A stretch of DNA of 34,742 bases from assembly GCA_903878285.1 (NCBI GenBank), contig CAIRHB010000003.1, positions 1 through 34,742 on the forward strand, written 5' to 3'. Positions 10,139 to 27,014 of the stretch are shown in pieces (the stretch's first letter is position 1; each line of letters starts with the position of its first letter). A program made the position numbers and the translations under genes. The notes below the pieces were generated by a model. That model saw nothing but the letters and a program-made list of their open reading frames with translations, was not told the origin of the DNA and ran no database searches. The DNA is from Candidatus Adlerbacteria bacterium. Lineage in GTDB: Bacteria; Patescibacteriota; Minisyncoccia; Phycocordibacterales; SBAW01.

Positions 10139-10771
10139 CTACTTTTTGCCGCCGTTTGCAAGGATAGTGCCCTTGTGGCCGAAGATTTCATCGACGATGC
10201 CGTACTTCTTTGCCTCCTCTGCGCTCATAAAGTAGTCGCGCTCGACATCCTGCTCGATCTTCGACAGCGGCTGGCCGGTCGCCTTGGAAAGGATTTTGTT
10301 TAAACGATCGCGTGTGGCGATGATGTGCTTGGCAGTGATCTCGATGTCGGTCGCCTGACCTTGTGCCCCGCCCCACGGCTGGTGGATCATCACCTCGGCG
10401 TTTGGCAGAGTAAAACGCTTACCCTTCGCGCCGCAGGCAAGAAGAATCGCCGCCGCAGACGCCGCCATTCCGACGCAGATTGTCGCGACGTCGGGCTTGA
10501 TATAGGACATAGTGTCGAGCATCGCGAGCGCTGAGGTCACCGATCCGCCGGGCGAGTTGATATAGAGCTGGATATCCTTCTTGGGGTCTTCCATAGCCAA
10601 AAAGAGGAGCTGCGCGATGACAATATTTGCCATGTGGTCGTCGATCGGCCCGCCGAGGAAAATAATGCGGTCTTTGAGCAGTCGCGAGTAAATGTCGAAC
10701 GCTCTTTCTCCGTAGGGCGTCTTCTCCACGACCATCGGCACGAGCTGGTTGTAGGTTGTGTTGTCTTGCAT
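10139..10771 (-). CDS. clpP: ATP-dependent Clp protease proteolytic subunit
   Basis: A 210-residue serine peptidase that forms the tetradecameric Clp chamber with an AAA+ partner not in this window. The catalytic triad is Ser105 ([14 protein letters not shown]), His130 ([11 protein letters not shown]) and Asp179 ([11 protein letters not shown]). The oligomer-contact segment [18 protein letters not shown] is present. Residues [22 protein letters not shown] match the usual N-terminus. A -10 TAGTAT (10783-10778) lies 6 nt before ATG, with TTGCAC about 16 nt further up, so the mRNA is predicted leaderless. The promoter is divergent from that of the gene at 10850. Confidence 0.97.
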
Positions 10772-10777
10772 CTGCCT

Positions 10778-10842
10778 ATACTACCAAATTGTCCGCGAGG
10801 TGCAATTTCAATTTCTCCCACACCCACTTTCCGCGGTAGTAT
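10778..10842. promoter_or_regulatory. Divergent leaderless promoters (clpP / large unknown gene)
   Basis: On the minus strand TTGCAC-16 nt-TAGTAT, then 6 nt to the clpP ATG. On the plus strand TAGTAT (10837-10842), then 7 nt to ATG 10850; no good -35 is seen for the plus side. Confidence 0.65.
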
Positions 10843-10849
10843 AGAGGGT

Positions 10850-13345
10850 ATGAAAGGACCGAAGGGGCCAGGAAGTGCAGCAAGTCTGAGGGTGTCGCTT
10901 GCAGAGAAACACGTTCCTAACCAAGAGCCTGTGGTAGAGTCACCAAATACTATTGAGAAAATGGTTAGCGTCCTTAGTAGTCAAGACGCACAACGTGTAT
11001 TAGATGCACAGAATAAAATTCGTGAAACCATTCGTTGTGGAGGTGACAAGCGCAACGAGTGTCTCGAGTCCTTCGAGTTTGCAATGTCTGCAGCGTTACA
11101 AGAGGGAATGCTTCTAACGCCAGACCTTATGTTATTTCTTTCAGAAACCGCACATGCAGCAGAAGTGTCTCTTTTTGGAAGACGTCTAACCCTTTCTGTG
11201 TACTCTAGTCAGCTTGCCCCTGGGTTTTCTGATGAGATATCTCGTCTAGAGCAGTCAGAGGATTCGTCCGCAATTGTTAAACTACATAAATTGATTGATG
11301 CATATCAAACACTACAAGCATCGTTTTTAGATATCAATCCAGATGACCCAGAATGGCAGGACAGTAGACTGTCCCGCGGTCCGTTGCAGGACGTCATGGA
11401 TGCCAAACTGAGTAGTGTGGTGCGAATGCAACAGAATTACTTACTGCGCGAACATGCAAGAGAAAGTTTTGAGGGCGCAGATTTGTATGGAGACAGCGGT
11501 ACCACAGTAAAGAAAGGAGGCATGTCAGGCACGCCTGGTGGTATGCAAGATTCCTTTATTTTTTCGCACGAAGTGTTGCAGGCATCAAACACCCTTCGTC
11601 GGCAGTTGGGCGTTTGGGAGGGCTATCCGGTGGCGCAAGAATTAGTGCCACTTGCGCCTGGTTATGTCGGCTTTTACTCGCACGGTCGATTGGAAAAAGT
11701 ATATGCAGCGCCGATTGAAGTTGTTAACACTGACAAAGAAGACCAAGCTCTTGTTGCTCAAAACAACACCACGCACGACTGGATATATGGTTCGTTAAAC
11801 CGGCCACTGTCACCCTACGCCCGTTCTTCTTTAGGACTCAATAAATTGCGTGATTACTGGAATCTCATCAAACAACTGGGGGATGAACAGTTTTACTTTG
11901 ATCTTGATCGCATTGATCTCGGAGCGCTTCATCCAATGGTGCGTACAACCATACTGGAACATAACGCTTATATCTTACAAAGACTGCATTCTTTGGATCC
12001 GAAGCCTGCGCCTGTGTCAGAGGCAGAAGTGGACGAGAAATTGTTTCTCGGGGATGCTACCGACGATCGAAAGTATTTGTATAAATATTTTTCAAGTTAT
12101 GGAATGCGTCGAAAAGTAGAAAATGATTTTGGCGTATCAATAGCATCTCTGCACTTTGCAGAACAAATGGAGTTTATGGATTTGCTAAACAGTGCGGATA
12201 CAGAAAACTTTGCCCAATATCAAGAATTCTGTTCGCTTTATGGGGTAGATGCGTTGCGAACTTTCTTAGTAACAAATAAAGACTCTGTGCTACGCGATAA
12301 GGTGTTTGAGTTCGCGCGTGCAACAACGCCCGAGCAGGCGCGTGCTGTGTTTGCTGCATACGGCTCGCTGGTCGAGTCGATTGACCACATGGGTGAGTAT
12401 CTGCGCGAGTCGTTTGGTGCGCAGGACACAGGCGCCGTGGGTGCGGTAGTCGAGCGACAACTTAACCGCGCACGCAAGCTGCTTGCTGATGCGCACACGT
12501 ACAAAGACGAACCCGAGCGGTTGGTGGCGCTCGCGCAGTCGGTGCAGGCCGATATTGCGCTGTTTACCGACGCATGTCGTGTGCTCAAAACACGCAATCA
12601 ATTGTCGCTCGAGCAGGTGCGGGACGGCACACTCGAGAGTGTCAACGCAGCGCAGCTCCAAGAGGTCGACTGTACAAACATGCGGGACATTTGGGAATAT
12701 CGCTACGCGGGGAAGTATGGCGCGGAGTTGGAGCACGAGTTGCGAACACAATTTGAAAAGGCGCTCGCGAGTGAGCAGACCACGTTCTATATTTATCGCT
12801 ATAAAGGTCAGATTGCGTGCTACTTTTCTGCAGAGCACATTGGCATCAGCGAAGACGAACTCCCTAAGAAGCATCTCGCCTCGTTTCTCACGAGCCAGTC
12901 GTTTGAGGGTGGCATGCTCGGTCAGGCGGTGATGGAGCAAGGCATCGACCAAGAACAAAAAGGCTCGGTATTGGTCGCGGAGTCGGACGTCGACATTGCA
13001 CGCACCCCTATCGTGAGCAAATACTTCGAGGACTACAACTTCTACGCCACGCACCGCTTTGAAGACCAAGGTGAACCAACACTTGCTTTAGAGCGACGCG
13101 AGGGAGATCTATTTGCTACCAAGCACTTGAGCAAAAAGGATGTCCAGGCACGTGCGCATCATGGTGAGTCGTCGATGCTGGCTCAATTTGTAGAGAGCGA
13201 CACTGTGCCCAACTTCGACCACTATCTCCAAAGAAATATGGTGTTGACCCGGTATTTTGTTGCCAAAGATGCGCAAGGGGCGCAAAAATACTACGCGGTG
13301 TTCGAACGATTGTCACTTTCGCCAGCGCTTGCTTTAGCTGCATGA
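10850..13345 (+). CDS. Large protein of unknown function (831 residues)
   Basis: No family is recognised. It has no signal peptide or membrane segment and appears soluble. The first part is rich in helices (IEKMVSVLSSQDAQRVLDAQNKIRE; ISRLEQSEDSSAIVKLHKLID). A middle part contains a G-rich loop TVKKGGMSGTPGGMQDSF. The last 200 residues have an alternating beta pattern (FYIYRYKGQIACYFSAEHIG; GSVLVAESDVDI; NFYATHRFED) faintly like a GNAT acetyltransferase, without a clear acetyl-CoA loop. The start at 10850 follows TAGTAT by 7 nt; a frame open to 10634 crosses clpP. Base composition changes inside the gene: AT-rich codons up to about 12.25 kb, GC-rich after. Its 3' end overlaps the convergent TrmB gene by 55 bp. 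Confidence 0.75.
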   Translation: MKGPKGPGSAASLRVSLAEKHVPNQEPVVESPNTIEKMVSVLSSQDAQRVLDAQNKIRETIRCGGDKRNECLESFEFAMSAALQEGMLLTPDLMLFLSETAHAAEVSLFGRRLTLSVYSSQLAPGFSDEISRLEQSEDSSAIVKLHKLIDAYQTLQASFLDINPDDPEWQDSRLSRGPLQDVMDAKLSSVVRMQQNYLLREHARESFEGADLYGDSGTTVKKGGMSGTPGGMQDSFIFSHEVLQASNTLRRQLGVWEGYPVAQELVPLAPGYVGFYSHGRLEKVYAAPIEVVNTDKEDQALVAQNNTTHDWIYGSLNRPLSPYARSSLGLNKLRDYWNLIKQLGDEQFYFDLDRIDLGALHPMVRTTILEHNAYILQRLHSLDPKPAPVSEAEVDEKLFLGDATDDRKYLYKYFSSYGMRRKVENDFGVSIASLHFAEQMEFMDLLNSADTENFAQYQEFCSLYGVDALRTFLVTNKDSVLRDKVFEFARATTPEQARAVFAAYGSLVESIDHMGEYLRESFGAQDTGAVGAVVERQLNRARKLLADAHTYKDEPERLVALAQSVQADIALFTDACRVLKTRNQLSLEQVRDGTLESVNAAQLQEVDCTNMRDIWEYRYAGKYGAELEHELRTQFEKALASEQTTFYIYRYKGQIACYFSAEHIGISEDELPKKHLASFLTSQSFEGGMLGQAVMEQGIDQEQKGSVLVAESDVDIARTPIVSKYFEDYNFYATHRFEDQGEPTLALERREGDLFATKHLSKKDVQARAHHGESSMLAQFVESDTVPNFDHYLQRNMVLTRYFVAKDAQGAQKYYAVFERLSLSPALALAA

Positions 13346-19780: not shown

Positions 19781-20950
19781 CTACTGTGCGTGTACCTCGC
19801 CTGTTGCGTCCGTTGCAGCGACCGTCTCGCCGCGAGTCGACTGGATGTCGATGCGCCAGCCGGTCAACTTTGCGGCGAGGCGTACATTTTGTCCACCGCG
19901 ACCAATCGCCAACGACTGCTGGTCCTCGGCGACCTTGATCGACGCCTTGTGCTCTGCCTCGTCGAGCTCGACCGACGTGATGCGTGCGGGCGAGAGCGCC
20001 TCTTCGATAAACTGCTTTGGGTTTTCGTTCCACTCGATGATGTCGATTTTCTCGCCGCCGAGCTCGGAGGTCACGGTCGAGACGCGCACGCCGCGCTGTC
20101 CGACCAAGGAACCGACTGGGTCGACATGCGGGTCGGTCGAAGCGACGGCGACCTTTGACCGGCTGCCAGCCTCGCGCGCGATCGCCTTAAATACCACAGT
20201 GCCATGTGCTGCCTCGGGTGCCTCCATCTCGAAGAGTTTTGCGAGGAAGTTCGGATGTGCGCGGGAGAGGCGTAGGTAGATGCCGCGCGGGCTGTCCTCG
20301 ACTTGGTAGAGCAGGCCGCGAATACGCTCGCCTTGGCGGTAGCGCTCGCCAGGGATCTGCTCGTCGTAGGGGAGGATGCCGGTTGCGCGGCCGAGGTCGA
20401 CAAAAATATTACCGCGCTCCATACGTTGCACGGTGCCAGAAACAATCTCGCCCTGGCGTTTGCCAAACTCGGCAACAACGGAGACCTTCTCTGCTTCGCG
20501 GATCTTTTGGATAATCACCTGCTTGGCGGTCTGTGCGGCGATGCGGCCATAATCATCCTTTGCCTCGAGCGGGAAGACGAGCTCGTCGCCCACCTTCGCA
20601 TCGCGCTTGATAAATTTGGCGTCCGCAAGCGGGATATGCTGCTCGGCGTTAAAGCGCGGCAGAGTGTCTTCCTCTTCATCTTCCTTGTCCTCCGTAGCTT
20701 CAGCGGAAGAGGAGTCCGAGTCGCTAAAGCGCACGGTGCTTTCGTCGACAACTTCTTTGACCTGCTGGAACTCGGTTGTGCCTGCGGCTAAGTCGATCTG
20801 CGCACGGATAATCTGCCCGCGCTTGGCGTACTCCTTTTTATATGCGGTCGCGAGCGCCGCCTCGATTGCCTCGACAACTTTGGCGCGCGGAATACCGCGC
20901 TCGTCCTCCAACTCGCCGAGCACCGAATTGATAACTTTAAGATCAAACAT
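19781..20950 (-). CDS. nusA: Transcription elongation/termination factor NusA
   Basis: A 389-residue protein. The N-terminal RNA polymerase-binding domain (INSVLGELEDERGIPRAKVVEAIEAALATAYKKEY) is interrupted by a Ser/Glu/Asp-rich insertion (SDSDSSSAEATEDKEDEEED). Then come the S1 domain (GEIVSGTVQRMERGNIFVDLGRATGILP), KH1 (DPVGSLVGQRGVRVSTVTSELGGEKIDIIEW) and KH2 (LAIGRGGQNVRLAAKLTGWRIDI). There is no acidic C-terminal repeat, as usual outside gamma-proteobacteria. It opens the minus-strand group nusA-ppa-tig. Confidence 0.95.
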   Translation of the reverse strand: MFDLKVINSVLGELEDERGIPRAKVVEAIEAALATAYKKEYAKRGQIIRAQIDLAAGTTEFQQVKEVVDESTVRFSDSDSSSAEATEDKEDEEEDTLPRFNAEQHIPLADAKFIKRDAKVGDELVFPLEAKDDYGRIAAQTAKQVIIQKIREAEKVSVVAEFGKRQGEIVSGTVQRMERGNIFVDLGRATGILPYDEQIPGERYRQGERIRGLLYQVEDSPRGIYLRLSRAHPNFLAKLFEMEAPEAAHGTVVFKAIAREAGSRSKVAVASTDPHVDPVGSLVGQRGVRVSTVTSELGGEKIDIIEWNENPKQFIEEALSPARITSVELDEAEHKASIKVAEDQQSLAIGRGGQNVRLAAKLTGWRIDIQSTRGETVAATDATGEVHAQ

Positions 20951-21623: not shown

Positions 21624-22334
21624 TTAGTACCTCACGGAGATGTTCAGGGGATCATCGAAACGCACGCGCACCAATACCCTCCTTCCTTTATAGGGCATTC
21701 TTCCGTGCAGGGTAATTTTATTGTTGATCAACAATATATCACCCCGCTGCCATCTGTGCCTAACCAAGAGGCTCCTTTCAAGGATGGTGTCGACTGTTTT
21801 GTACAAGTCTGCATCCTGGATACCGCGTCCTTGATGCCGAATATAGTTTTCAGGCACCTGGCCTCTGTATCTTAGGCTGCTTCTGTTGCACAACGGATGA
21901 ACAGCGTTTTCCCTTGGGTATGCCCTGCTGAAGTACTCGATTTCGGTGCAGGCAATTTCAGGGTGGTCGCGTTCTATAATTGCGCAAGCTTGTTTGCCGT
22001 TATAAACACTGGTCTCTCCCCCTGTTTCTGCTGGAACAACACAACCAAGAGCAAAATAGGGAGTGATTCCAGCTGTTGCATACACGCTTTCTGAGTGGAT
22101 TGCCAAGGGTTTGTCGTCTCCGCACCCTTCTAGGGTGACATATGCGGCCGATTTCGAAATCGTTCTGCCAAGAAGCACCATTGCAATGGTGAGGTATCTT
22201 TCCAGCTCTGCCGTATCTGTAGGCAGAGAAACCGGTCGAATTAAGACATAACCCTGCTCCTCTAGCTGTTGCATTGCGGAGTTTCTCGCTACCTCTGTTG
22301 AGGTGTCAAGCATTACAGGCTTAAGACTAGCCAT
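21624..22334 (-). CDS. TauD/TfdA-like Fe(II)/2-oxoglutarate dioxygenase
   Basis: A 236-residue enzyme starting MASLKPVML; GGAGG lies 6 nt before the start, a clear Shine-Dalgarno site. The iron site is H-x-E in PLAIHSESVYA (H-x-D/E is accepted in the family), with the distal His in NNKITLHGRMPYKGRRVLVRVRF, which also holds the Arg that binds 2-oxoglutarate. The Thr in GGETSVYNG fits the family pattern. The substrate is unknown; hydroxylation of a small molecule or free amino acid is possible. It forms a two-gene unit with NUDIX 1. Lower GC content and the Shine-Dalgarno start suggest acquisition. Confidence 0.75.
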   Translation of the reverse strand: MASLKPVMLDTSTEVARNSAMQQLEEQGYVLIRPVSLPTDTAELERYLTIAMVLLGRTISKSAAYVTLEGCGDDKPLAIHSESVYATAGITPYFALGCVVPAETGGETSVYNGKQACAIIERDHPEIACTEIEYFSRAYPRENAVHPLCNRSSLRYRGQVPENYIRHQGRGIQDADLYKTVDTILERSLLVRHRWQRGDILLINNKITLHGRMPYKGRRVLVRVRFDDPLNISVRY

Positions 22335-22428
22335 CTTCAACCTCCAATTGCAAGAGTTCTTCCAAATGGAAATATAGCAGGCTTTTCTCGTCTCGTCCCG
22401 TCACTTATGCCCGCCCTTTGCCGCGGTT

Positions 22429-23127
22429 TCAAGAAAAAACGTCTACATGTTTCTCGCAAAAAGCTCTCGTAGACCCTCTGCGGAAGTGTGCAAAATAGAG
22501 CGTATCGGTATGGGGAACGGTGTCTCGATATGCCCCAAGTTTAAAATAGGCTTCTACCGCGTCGTCAGGATGGCCGATGAATCCCTCAAAAGACGCAAAT
22601 GATGTCCCGTTAAGAAACGCCTCTGTGCGTCCTTGATGATTTGCAGCAATGCGATAGTGCACCATAAACCGCTGCCAGCTACCGAGCTCGATAGGTGGTG
22701 CTTTAAAGGTAAGCCTCTCTTCTTTTGATTGGATGATGAATATAACGTTGCCGTTTTTATAGCGAAGCGCTAATGCTGGGCGTCTATTGCCGACTTGTTT
22801 CCAACTCGCGAACAAAAGGCGGTTGTTGATTACGACAAAATCCTTGGGTATATACACGGAAAATGCATACCAGACGTCCGTACCAGCGGGGAGTATAACC
22901 TCTTTTCTTTCGGACAATTCTGAACGCTCTGTACCGTTGCCATCGCCTCCTATTTCAGGAAGATCGCCTTGATGCACGGTGACTTTTAGTGCTGGTCCTG
23001 CTGTGCCGTCAACATCGTGCACCATCTCAAAACGATCCTCCCTAATCCTTTTCAAGTTCCAGAATGATGTGTCTATCTCGGCAGATACAAAGTCATCTGA
23101 ATATTCGATACCTCCTGTCTCCATCAT
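22429..23127 (-). CDS. Polysaccharide lyase-like protein (heparin lyase I / PL20-like fold)
   Basis: A 232-residue protein starting MMETGGIEYSDDF. The middle shows the beta-jelly-roll pattern of PF14099-type lyases: DVWYAFSVYIPKDFVVINNRLLFASWKQV, then PALALRYKNGNVIFIIQS, then LGSWQRFMVHYRIAANHQGRTEAFLNG and YFKLGAYRD. No signal peptide is seen, which is unusual for such enzymes. The start follows TATAAT (23140-23135) by 7 nt; a frame open to 23628 crosses the pilB-like gene and is rejected. Activity and substrate are not proven; a carbohydrate-binding role without lysis is possible. Confidence 0.65.
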   Translation of the reverse strand: MMETGGIEYSDDFVSAEIDTSFWNLKRIREDRFEMVHDVDGTAGPALKVTVHQGDLPEIGGDGNGTERSELSERKEVILPAGTDVWYAFSVYIPKDFVVINNRLLFASWKQVGNRRPALALRYKNGNVIFIIQSKEERLTFKAPPIELGSWQRFMVHYRIAANHQGRTEAFLNGTSFASFEGFIGHPDDAVEAYFKLGAYRDTVPHTDTLYFAHFRRGSTRAFCEKHVDVFS

Positions 23128-23134
23128 GAGTGTA

Positions 23135-23190
23135 ATTATACACTTTTCTTTTGCACTCTCACGCTCGATTGCGCGCGAGTGCGGTATACT
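23135..23190. promoter_or_regulatory. Divergent leaderless promoters (lyase-like gene / pilB-like gene)
   Basis: On the minus strand TATAAT (23140-23135), 7 nt before ATG 23127. On the plus strand TATACT (23185-23190), 6 nt before ATG 23197. Clear -35 boxes are not seen. Confidence 0.65.
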
Positions 23191-23196
23191 AGAGAC

Positions 23197-24996
23197 ATGA
23201 TTGCTGATGGGGAACAGCTTGGAGTGTTCTTGGTGGATGCGGGGTTTGTGACACGCTCGCAGTTGCGTGCTGCACAAGAAGTGGCTGCGCGGTCGGGTGA
23301 GTCGCTTGCAGCTGCGATTGTGTCGCAGGGCATGCTCGACGAGGACGAGTTGCGTCGCGGGATGGCGGCGGCGTTTGGTGTGCCGTTTGTGACGCTCGCG
23401 CGCGAGGATGTGTCGACCGAGGCGCTGCAGCATATCCCCGAGCCGTTTTCTCGCACGCACAATATCGTCGCCTTTCGGCAGACGGGCGACTCGCTCGAGA
23501 TCGCCCTCTTCGACCTCGCTGACTTGGAAAAAATCGAGCAGCTGCAACACAAATTGCGCTTCCGTATCCTGCCACGGCTCACCAACCGCGCGTCGATGCG
23601 CACCGCGCTCGTCGAGTATCAAAAGCATCTTAAAAAGCGTTTTGGCGACGCGATTGTCGAGGAGGCAAACGTGCTCGCCGAGCGCCTACAGAAGTTTGCC
23701 CGATCTGACGAAACCGATACTTCCACATCTGATGCTGCAGAAGATATAACGCTAACGCTCGCCGACCAACAAGCAGCAGCGCGGCTGACCGACCTTTTGG
23801 TGCAGCATGCGCTGACGAGCCAAGCATCGCATGTACACATCGACCCGACGGAGCGCGGCGCGTTGGTGCGCTACCGCATCGGCGGCATGTTGCACGAAGC
23901 GATGCAGATCCCGCTCCACGCGGGCAAGGCGCTGGTCGCACGGCTGCGTCAGCTCGCGGGGCTTTCTGCTGCGGTCGGCGACACAACACAGGAAGTATCA
24001 CAGGAGGGGCGATTTAAAGTGTCGCTCAACGCGGCGTCCGAGGACGAGTACGCTGTGCGCGTATACGGCGCTCATGCGACAGAGCATGGTCGCGTGACGC
24101 TGCATATTGTGCCGACGCGTTCGGGGCGGCGTGGCTTTACGCCCGAGTCGCTCGGGCTGCATGGCCAGGAGCTTGAGGAGTTGCACCGGCTTGCGCGCGT
24201 GAGTTCTGGGTTGGTGCTTGTGTGCGGCCCCGCCGACTCGGGTAGGACAACGCTGCTCTATACGTTACTTGATATGCTTGGCGGCGTGTCGCGCACCGTT
24301 GGCACGGTCGAGAACACGATTGAGCATCGCGTGCCGCTTGCGCAGCAATCGCAGGCAGGTTCGGGGCAGGGAATATCCACTGCCGCGCGGCTGCGTACAT
24401 TACTTTTGCAGGATACCGATGTGATTATGTTGGCAAACATTGCCGACCGTGAGACAGCCGCGCTCGCGGTGTCGGCGGCAAATCGTGGCGTGTTGGTGCT
24501 CGCGGGGGTGTCGGGCAACAGTGCCGCTGCGGGTATTGATACACTGCGGCGTTTTGGCGTTTCACCGAATATCCTTGCGTCATCGCTCCAACTGGTGATC
24601 GCGACACGTCTGGTCCGCCGTCTGTGTTCCAGACACGAGACACATCGGCTGTCGCGGCTTGAGGCAGACACACTAGAAGAAAAGGCAGAGTTTAGCCGCG
24701 TCCTCGCGGCGCTTAAGGAGGAAGGTTTTGCGGACTCCAATGCACAGTGGAAGGATGTGACGTTTTCGCGGCCCGAACCGTGCGGCGAGTGTCGCGGCGG
24801 CTACCAAGGGCGGCTTGGTGTGCAGGAGGTCGCTCCGGTGTCGCGAGTACTGCGTGACGCGATCATCCGTGGCGGCGATCTTGCGGATATCGAGCGTCTG
24901 CTCGCCGAGGAAGGGGTGCTGAATCTCGTCGAAGATGGACTATACAAGGCGGCTCGGGGGCAGACCAGTGTCGAAGAGATTTTGAAAGTGGCGTGA
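23197..24996 (+). CDS. GspE/PilB-type secretion ATPase with degenerate catalytic motifs
   Basis: A 599-residue protein with the full architecture of type IV pilus assembly ATPases: MshEN-type N-terminal domain (1-145), then the Asp-box region ASHVHIDPTERGALVRYRIGG (210-230) and the ATPase core. The catalytic motifs are altered. Walker A is GPADSGRTT (344-352), with Arg in place of the essential Lys. The Walker B region is DTDVIMLANIADRETA where active enzymes have GEIRD. The His box is GVLVLAGVSGNSA, without its histidines. The zinc site keeps CGEC but has lost part of the first pair (CSRH). It is likely an inactive paralogue or structural subunit. It leads tpiA and pgk. Confidence 0.85.
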   Translation: MIADGEQLGVFLVDAGFVTRSQLRAAQEVAARSGESLAAAIVSQGMLDEDELRRGMAAAFGVPFVTLAREDVSTEALQHIPEPFSRTHNIVAFRQTGDSLEIALFDLADLEKIEQLQHKLRFRILPRLTNRASMRTALVEYQKHLKKRFGDAIVEEANVLAERLQKFARSDETDTSTSDAAEDITLTLADQQAAARLTDLLVQHALTSQASHVHIDPTERGALVRYRIGGMLHEAMQIPLHAGKALVARLRQLAGLSAAVGDTTQEVSQEGRFKVSLNAASEDEYAVRVYGAHATEHGRVTLHIVPTRSGRRGFTPESLGLHGQELEELHRLARVSSGLVLVCGPADSGRTTLLYTLLDMLGGVSRTVGTVENTIEHRVPLAQQSQAGSGQGISTAARLRTLLLQDTDVIMLANIADRETAALAVSAANRGVLVLAGVSGNSAAAGIDTLRRFGVSPNILASSLQLVIATRLVRRLCSRHETHRLSRLEADTLEEKAEFSRVLAALKEEGFADSNAQWKDVTFSRPEPCGECRGGYQGRLGVQEVAPVSRVLRDAIIRGGDLADIERLLAEEGVLNLVEDGLYKAARGQTSVEEILKVA

Positions 24997-25023
24997 GTCT
25001 CACCGAGCGGGTACTATAGATAC

Positions 25024-25800
25024 ATGATAGCAACAAAAAAGTCGCCTGCTAAAAAGCCGCTGGTAATTGCAAACTGGAAGGCGTATCTTACGCGCCCCGA
25101 GGAGGTGCAGCGCTTCGCGCTCGCGTATACGCGCATCGCTAAAAAATATTCCCACGTCGATCTCTTGATTGCGCCACCGTTTGTTCTGTTGCCAGCAACA
25201 ATCGCAGCGTTTAGGAAAGCAGGCGTGCGGATTGCCGCGCAGAGTGTGTCGCCCTTTGTTGACGAAAAGCAGACCGGCGAGGTCGAGGCGTCGATGCTTA
25301 AATCACTCGGTGTCTCGCAGGTTATTGTCGGGCACTCGGAGCGGCGGCAGTATGAGAGCAACGACGTGGTGCGCGCGCAGGTTGCCGCTGCGGCAAAAGC
25401 AGGCCTCTCTATCATCTTGTGTGTCGGCGAACAGGAGCGCGACGCGGCAGGCGGACATTTTTCTGTTATTGCATCGCAACTCACCACCGCTCTAGAGAAA
25501 ACAACAATACCTGCAACAAAGATTATCGTTGCATACGAGCCCGTGTGGGCAATCGGCAAAAGTGCCAAGGATGCGATGCAGCCAGATGATGCGCACGAGA
25601 CGGTTATTTTTATACGCAAAAATCTCGCCGATATTCTCGGGCGCGCAGCGGGGGTCAAGGTGCCGATCCTCTATGGCGGCTCGGTCGAGGCAGAGAACGC
25701 GAGAGATCTGCTCGTCTCTGGGGGCGTGTCGGGATTTTTGGTCGGACATGCAAGCACCAAGGTGGATTTGCTCACGGCGCTGCTTGCTGCGATTCAGTAA
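25024..25800 (+). CDS. tpiA: Triosephosphate isomerase
   Basis: A 258-residue glycolytic enzyme interconverting dihydroxyacetone phosphate and glyceraldehyde 3-phosphate. Catalytic residues are present: Asn/Lys in VIANWKAYL, His in VIVGHSERRQYE, Glu in VAYEPVWAIGK, and the phosphate-binding PILYGGSVEAENA. The N-terminal MIATKKSPAKKP is a short extension. TACTAT (25012-25017) lies 6 nt before ATG. It is 27 nt after the pilB-like gene and 50 nt before pgk. Confidence 0.96.
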   Translation: MIATKKSPAKKPLVIANWKAYLTRPEEVQRFALAYTRIAKKYSHVDLLIAPPFVLLPATIAAFRKAGVRIAAQSVSPFVDEKQTGEVEASMLKSLGVSQVIVGHSERRQYESNDVVRAQVAAAAKAGLSIILCVGEQERDAAGGHFSVIASQLTTALEKTTIPATKIIVAYEPVWAIGKSAKDAMQPDDAHETVIFIRKNLADILGRAAGVKVPILYGGSVEAENARDLLVSGGVSGFLVGHASTKVDLLTALLAAIQ

Positions 25801-25850: not shown

Positions 25851-27014
25851 ATGTATAGCTTCGCAACCATCACCGACGCAATCAACTTGCAGTGTATTAA
25901 ACCAGGCACGCGCGTCCTGTTGCGCACGAGTCTTAATGTACCTGTTGCTGCCGATGGCTCCATTGGTGATATGTTCCGGCTCACGCGCTCACTGCCAACG
26001 ATCAAGTTGTTGATGGAGAAAAAAGCAAAGGTGATCATTGTGGGTTACATCGGCCGCCAAGGCGACACACTGCGCCCCGTGCATGCGGCACTGCAAACGT
26101 TGCTGCCTGATACAAAAATATCTTTTTTTGATGGAAAGATAGGTGATGCGCGAGCGGTTGTTGATCAGCTAGCAGAAGGGGAGTGTGTGATGCTCGAGAA
26201 TATCCGTCGCGAGAAGGGCGAGGAGGATCCTGTATCTGCCGACGGCGCACAACTAGTGGCCGACCTGGCAGCACTCGCTGATATGTTTGTCGACGACGCG
26301 TTTGCCGAGGCGCATCGCGCGTATGCGTCCAATTGTGGCGTCACGAGCAAGCTGCCGTCCTACGCAGGGCTCTTGTTTACCGAAGAGGTAGAGAAATTGT
26401 CCGAAGCACTGACACCAACAGGGAAGTCGCTCGCGATTATCGGTGGTGCCAAGTTTGAAACAAAAGAGCCGCTGTTGATAAAACTCCTAGACACATACGA
26501 GGCGGTGCTCCTTGGCGGCGCGCTTGCCGACGATGTGTTGCGCGCGCGTGGCAACCCTGTTGGATCCTCGCTCATCTCGGGAGAGCCGATTCCGGTTTCT
26601 ATCGCCAGCAACAGCACACTGGTGGTCCCAACTGATGTGGTAGTGGTCGAGGAGGGGGTGAGCGCCGAACGCGAGTGTACTGTCAACGATGTCCGCGCGA
26701 CTGAGCACATTGTCGACATTGGTGCAGCAACGTCGAGGGCATGGGCGGAAAAGATCTCGCAGGCAGCGTTTGTATTGTGGAACGGCCCGATGGGCGTCTA
26801 TGAACAAGGGTTCGAGGACGGCACCGATGCGCTCGTCGAAGCAATCTCGCGCTCGACGTGCCATGCAGTCATCGGCGGCGGCGACACGGCAGCAGCAATA
26901 GCCAAGTTCCCGCTCGACCCGTCACGGGTCTTTATCTCCACCGGCGGCGGCGCAATGCTCCAATTCCTCGCCGACGGCACGCTGCCTGCGATCGACGCGC
27001 TTTCTAAAAAGTAA
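25851..27014 (+). CDS. pgk: Phosphoglycerate kinase, divergent
   Basis: A 387-residue enzyme of glycolysis that transfers phosphate from 1,3-bisphosphoglycerate to ADP. Recognised by LENIRREKGEE, FAEAHRAYAS, AIIGGAKFETK, FVLWNGPMGVYEQ and VIGGGDTAAAIAKF with STGGGAML. Two substrate-site motifs differ from the norm: R-x-D-x-N is RTSLN (25-29; Asp is Ser), and SHLGRP is GYIGRQ (65-70; His is Tyr). The nucleotide side is well kept. It may have weaker activity or altered substrate geometry; a lineage-specific variant is the simplest view. Confidence 0.92.
   Translation: MYSFATITDAINLQCIKPGTRVLLRTSLNVPVAADGSIGDMFRLTRSLPTIKLLMEKKAKVIIVGYIGRQGDTLRPVHAALQTLLPDTKISFFDGKIGDARAVVDQLAEGECVMLENIRREKGEEDPVSADGAQLVADLAALADMFVDDAFAEAHRAYASNCGVTSKLPSYAGLLFTEEVEKLSEALTPTGKSLAIIGGAKFETKEPLLIKLLDTYEAVLLGGALADDVLRARGNPVGSSLISGEPIPVSIASNSTLVVPTDVVVVEEGVSAERECTVNDVRATEHIVDIGAATSRAWAEKISQAAFVLWNGPMGVYEQGFEDGTDALVEAISRSTCHAVIGGGDTAAAIAKFPLDPSRVFISTGGGAMLQFLADGTLPAIDALSKK

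Follow-up and report, generated by a model that had tools for sequence, protein, structure and literature searches.

The genus that comprises Candidatus Adlerbacteria and allies (Patescibacteria) carries a paralogue of the PilB/GspE assembly ATPases, here named PilBc, whose reading frame is open and whose active site is defective in 34 of 35 genomes. We consider it probable, at roughly 0.6, that PilBc is a clade-wide maintained pseudo-ATPase which now acts either as an oligomeric scaffold that does not cycle or as a regulator responsive to nucleotide, and which meets non-pilus partners via its N-domain. The dead motor probably has some job other than pilus drive. The protein was found in the window, i.e. 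the whole stretch of 34,742 nucleotides that was analysed, which belongs to a genome (G000) of 930 kb that is 97.6% complete.

Domain structure and active-site motifs of PilBc

The frame at positions 23179-24996 of the forward strand is open throughout and, with the ATG at 23197, encodes 599 amino acids. The Pfam domain T2SSE is matched at full length (214 bits, cut-off 24.9) and is preceded by an MshEN domain (49 bits). This confirms the view of a preliminary description that the protein is full-length and free of frameshifts. Membership in the PilB/GspE family by descent follows from the T2SSE match above the curated cut-off together with MshEN, and from tree and synteny with intact orthologues. 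The motifs were read by alignment to both intact paralogues of the same genome, while residue roles and the Geobacter PilB numbering were taken from the literature (PMC5424180).

23197..24996, + strand: PilBc, dead PilB paralogue, 599 aa, with MshEN N-domain, N2D and RecA-like C-domain
24226..24252, + strand: degenerate Walker A motif GPADSGRTT, Lys to Arg at residue 350
24310..24315, + strand: Asp box, E372 kept, adjacent residue changed from Asp to Asn
24433..24447, + strand: degenerate Walker B/catalytic Glu motif ANIAD (for GEIRD), Glu to Asn at residue 414
24484..24522, + strand: degenerate His box RGVLVLAGVSGNS with V432/S439 and no His; PilB T411 to Arg, H413 to Val, H420 to Ser

The residues expected of an active motor, namely the Walker A Lys, the Glu of GEIRD and the His-box histidines, are replaced by R350, N414 and V432/S439, and the alignment thereby agrees with the three altered motifs described earlier. 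In Geobacter PilB numbering, Asn stands in place of the catalytic E395, Arg of T411, Val of H413 and Ser of H420. The Asp-box Glu, the Mg-coordinating residue of PilB (PMC5424180), is present as E372, and both arginine fingers are retained. Mutations in the altered motifs are reported to disrupt activity in the PilB/GspE family (PMC5424180).

Loss of catalytic residues throughout the genus

Loss of active-site motifs in related genomes, named in the preliminary description as a check, was found in 34 of 34 orthologues of the genus. Named loci such as MEWX01000025.1 and CAIJFH010000008.1 assign the genus to Candidatus Adlerbacteria. None of the orthologues has an internal stop. Both His-box histidines are absent from all 34, and the catalytic Glu is absent from 30 and kept in four. 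The exchange of the Walker A Lys for Arg holds for the window protein but is no general trait, as the Lys is kept in 23/34; the loss that every orthologue shares is that of both His-box histidines. Nine members, including the window protein, lack the Walker A Lys, the catalytic Glu and the His-box histidines together. Both Walker A glycines are kept in all 34 proteins, the Asp-box Glu in 31 and the first arginine finger in 26. Furthermore, T411 is replaced by Arg in 30/34, and the position of H420 is acidic in about half of the orthologues.

The only one of the 35 genomes lacking PilBc is G026 (83% complete), where its absence is probably due to genome incompleteness. Gene loss had also been considered for G004 and G024, which gave weak single-sequence matches; this proved wrong, as open, shortened frames are present at the same locus.

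Beyond the genus almost all orthologues inspected are intact, among them the 19 that were aligned, which represent 19 other genera, and 74 named Patescibacteria loci. In a quick tree the dead proteins form one clade (support 100), and its sister is the intact orthologue of a sister genus of the same family (G035). Among 240 positions conserved in the intact orthologues, the dead clade has kept 75 and partly kept 87, while 47 are lost and 31 have switched to another residue. New lineage-specific residues have become fixed, R487 and K519 each in 30/30 sequences. Many dead orthologues also carry a variable C-x2-[HC]...CxxC pattern that resembles the tetracysteine zinc motif CxxC...CxxC of PilB/GspE (PilBc residues 477-532, window positions 24625-24792) and is mostly absent from intact ones.

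A dead PilBc was also found in another family of the order. Here G189 has a full-length protein of 587 amino acids beside tpiA, with neither GEIRD nor a His box and 38% identical to its relatives, and one PilC. Two members of the same family (G062 and G140) have an intact PilBc with pilC downstream of it and two PilC. To judge from these sequences the conversion arose twice, with a putative second, independent origin in the single genome G189.

Selection, predicted fold and promoter

In both closest pairs of genomes dN/dS of PilBc is 0.09 (dS 0.99 and 1.55), compared to 0.10-0.20 for tpiA and 0.10-0.15 for pgk. Outside these two pairs dS is near saturation, which makes omega approximate, and tree-wide codon models were used. 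For 17 species they gave an omega of 0.11 for PilBc, 0.10 and 0.09 for the two other PilB/GspE proteins of the genus (the C5 PilB and GspE, see below), 0.16 for tpiA and 0.13 for pgk. For 30 PilBc sequences omega was 0.14 versus 0.06 for the intact orthologues (MG model; the GY value for the latter is distorted by saturation). Thus PilBc is under purifying selection: with dN/dS of about 0.1 and tree-wide values of 0.11-0.14, near those of tpiA and pgk, the relaxed selection that would have spoken against its maintenance is not indicated. Sequence divergence of PilBc has outpaced that of the other PilB copies (mean identity 0.43 vs. 0.72 for the C5 PilB), though by tree length its divergence is only about 1.4 times that of tpiA.

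An AF2 model of PilBc has a mean pLDDT of 90.3. It aligns to PilB, PilF and GspE at Z 32-34 in VIA-align, run on the 1000 chains ranked highest by Foldseek, and shows the PilB fold; its MshEN domain matches MshE at Z 17. The Z values are used since Foldseek TM values are low owing to a different domain orientation.

23185..23190, + strand: -10-like box TATACT, six bases before the pilBc ATG, predicted leaderless start

A TATAMT-like box lies 4-9 bases before the pilBc start codon in 26 of 30 genus genomes, while shuffling predicts 0.67. This suggests that pilBc transcripts may be leaderless in most members of the genus. Such boxes near start codons were seen at window positions 23185-23197 and at several other genus loci (L056-L060, L066-L068). 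They also precede the start of tpiA (window positions 25012-25024), with strict matches in 9/30 genomes and 0.8 expected.

Motif loss in 34 orthologues, low dN/dS, a confident fold and the -10 box together bear out the earlier claim that a protein without its catalytic residues is being maintained. Neither chance nor a recent pseudogene can account for open frames in 34 of 35 genomes, the shared loss in 34 orthologues, dN/dS near 0.1 and the confident fold.

History of the locus

19781..20950, - strand: nusA, conserved divergent upstream neighbour of pilBc
25024..25800, + strand: tpiA (triosephosphate isomerase), neighbour of pilBc since pilC and the pilin genes were lost
25851..27014, + strand: pgk (phosphoglycerate kinase)

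In other families the gene order is trigger factor, divergent nusA, pilB, pilC, pilin-like genes, tpiA and pgk. At this locus the genus has tpiA and pgk after pilB, while pilC and the pilins are missing. This explains why pilBc stands before tpiA and pgk, away from pilus genes as described earlier: the locus is what remains of the nusA/pilB-pilC-pilin-tpiA-pgk region after deletion of pilC and the pilins. The dedicated PilC platform and pilins of an active motor are thus absent from the genus locus, and the PilC copy number is reduced: genomes of other genera typically give four PilC domain matches, equal to two PilC, and genus members give two, equal to one PilC. In most genus genomes pilBc lies directly ahead of tpiA with a short gap; in several, tpiA is 0.5-4.3 kb away and the pilBc frame is still open. 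Loss of pilC from the locus does not always give a dead PilBc, as G048 has an intact PilBc beside tpiA, no pilC at the locus and two PilC elsewhere.

Between nusA and pilBc the minus strand of the window holds a TauD-like dioxygenase frame (21624-22340) and a polysaccharide-lyase-like frame (22429-23628), the 5' part of which overlaps pilBc and is probably an over-extended start. The gap next to nusA measures 2.2 kb in the window genome and 0.6 kb in its closest relative (G005). A frame of 903 amino acids at 10634-13345 (+ strand) has no Pfam match.

Other motors of the genome and a species without detectable pili

The preliminary description had suggested looking for an active PilB elsewhere in the genome, and two further PilB/GspE genes with intact motifs were indeed found. 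One encodes a PilB on contig C5, beside pilT and pilC, the other a GspE-like protein on contig C42, between ruvB and a tsaE-like gene (names read from sequence). For each of them 20 genus genomes were sampled, and Walker A and His-box motifs are intact in every one; the exact string VGEIRD is present in all sampled proteins except three GspE members. Extra GspE genes paired with PilC occur in some genus members (G026, G011, G028, G020, G027, and also G007 and G012; loci L157, L158, L159, L160, L161, L165) and are apparently separate systems of patchy distribution.

One genome of the genus (G030), a metagenome-assembled genome of about 60 contigs rated 100% complete, gave no PilC match, no type IV pilin N-methyl motifs, no prepilin peptidase, no PilM above cut-off, no PilT and no PilB of the C5 type. 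It retains PilBc (frame of 585 aa) and the C42-type GspE (L058, L205). Its PilBc has not diverged faster: identity to the window protein is 0.46, compared to 0.47 for a piliated relative (G006). Since PilBc is kept in the absence of detectable pili, a role in a pilus motor cannot be the sole reason for its retention, unless the assembly misleads. The earlier proposal that PilBc regulates pilus motors or joins them in a mixed hexamer is therefore unsupported as stated. Presence of the intact GspE in this genome suggests that this protein, too, works without PilC. As the other family member left there, the C42 GspE is a candidate partner of PilBc. Rate covariation of PilBc with PilB or GspE gave no signal (31 branches, five genes; low power).

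Discussion

According to the reading we prefer, PilBc would descend from a working motor that served assembly in a second type IV pilus or pseudopilus system, encoded by an operon (pilB-pilC-pilins) located between nusA and tpiA. Deletion of pilC and the pilin genes would date back to the genus ancestor. The motor protein may then have been kept for a non-catalytic job, with its fold and a promoter of its own preserved, while the chemistry that was no longer required disappeared. The biochemical function we infer, comprising nucleotide binding, oligomerisation and a regulatory output, is drawn from conserved and lost residues. Most members would still be expected to bind nucleotide, because the Walker A glycines and the Asp-box Glu are kept (and the Lys in 23/34). 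Coupling of hydrolysis between subunits would be expected to fail, because the His-box histidines are gone in all and the catalytic Glu in most. PilBc would then serve as a scaffold or regulator whose partners lie outside the pilus and are reached through the N-domain. Sensing of c-di-GMP by MshEN is unlikely, as GGDEF is missing in 33 of the 35 genus genomes, G000 included, and this input is unavailable in most members. A bolder version, which we put forward tentatively and think rather less probable than the reading above, is that the intact PilBc of the order was already bifunctional, with an ATPase-independent non-pilus role, and that after loss of pilC and the pilins (at least twice) this role alone would preserve a free-standing regulatory pseudo-ATPase able to outlive all type IV pili.

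PilBc might instead be a non-hydrolysing subunit or inhibitor in hexamers of the C5 PilB or C42 GspE and tune pilus extension. The genus keeps both of these intact genes, motors of this family can cooperate, as PilT/PilU and PilB/TfpB do (PMC6762196, PMC11656802), and both the fold and, in 26/34, the first arginine finger are kept. Nevertheless, residues of the nucleotide interface between subunits are changed (T411 to Arg, His box), branch rates of PilBc track neither PilB nor GspE, albeit at low power, and in the species without C5 PilB, PilT, PilC and pilins only the C42 GspE is left to join, which makes this arrangement unlikely in our view. The reading that PilBc has retained ATP hydrolysis, with a changed chemistry, and drives some process could draw on the Walker A Lys (23/34), the Asp-box Glu (31/34), the conserved new Arg (30/34) and the acidic residue at the H420 position in about half of the members, and weak ATPase activity is possible in some of them to judge from the four that keep the catalytic Glu and the 23 that keep the Lys. 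For the family as a whole, however, we give this very little credence: the His-box histidines are absent from 34/34 and the catalytic Glu from 30/34, nine members including the window protein lack all three, and motif mutations are reported to disrupt activity in PilB/GspE proteins (PMC5424180).

The position directly ahead of tpiA in most genomes, with short gaps, and a divergence faster than that of other PilB copies would also fit a slowly dying gene that stays open only because the essential tpiA-pgk unit begins with it (through polarity, a promoter or translational coupling). Against this, low dN/dS indicates selection on amino acids, the frame is open even where tpiA is 0.5-4.3 kb off, and the gap before some tpiA genes holds a separate -10-like box for them (9/30 vs. 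0.8 expected). A confidently predicted PilB fold and new invariant residues are likewise not expected of decay, and such an operon-leader artefact is largely rejected as highly improbable.

We found no natural, long-maintained, clade-wide dead PilB/GspE pseudo-ATPase in the open-licence literature. The case offers a clear before and after, with intact orthologues next to pilC and pilins in most families and, throughout one genus, dead orthologues that lack these neighbours, and adds a separate second case and a species without detectable pili. Whether pilus motors have functions apart from pilus drive would become directly testable, and PilBc would show what of a motor protein remains when only its non-pilus function is selected. 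Furthermore, PilB gene counts in Patescibacteria overestimate their pili.

With the PilB/GspE assembly ATPases of type IV pili and type II secretion (PF00437 plus MshEN) PilBc shares descent, domain order, predicted fold, the Asp-box Glu and the Walker A glycines. It differs in lacking the catalytic Glu, the His box and, in the window protein, the Walker A Lys, in having no pilC or pilin genes at its locus and in being kept in one genome without a detectable pilus. FlaH/ArlH is a KaiC-like protein and is not known to descend from PilB, whereas PilBc is a degenerate motor paralogue. FlaH/ArlH binds ATP and partners FlaI, the ATPase of the archaellum (PMC6011876). It resembles PilBc only as a functional analogue, since both could, as nucleotide-binding proteins, stimulate or organise a PilB/GspE-type motor. 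PilU, an active ATPase that acts on pili together with PilT, and TfpB, which is described as a second motor for extension (PMC6762196, PMC8213720), are likewise second motor copies retained alongside a main motor; PilBc, however, lacks the catalytic residues and persists in one genome without detectable pili. In Myxococcus xanthus, PilB K327A, whose Walker A is inactive, has no ATPase activity and gives no motility but still signals for EPS production without pili; this regulation by an ATPase-inactive PilB is the likeness to PilBc and a precedent for the role we prefer (PMC5544727). The Myxococcus mutant was engineered from a working motor that carries motifs for c-di-GMP binding, whereas PilBc is natural, genus-wide and found in genomes mostly without GGDEF proteins.
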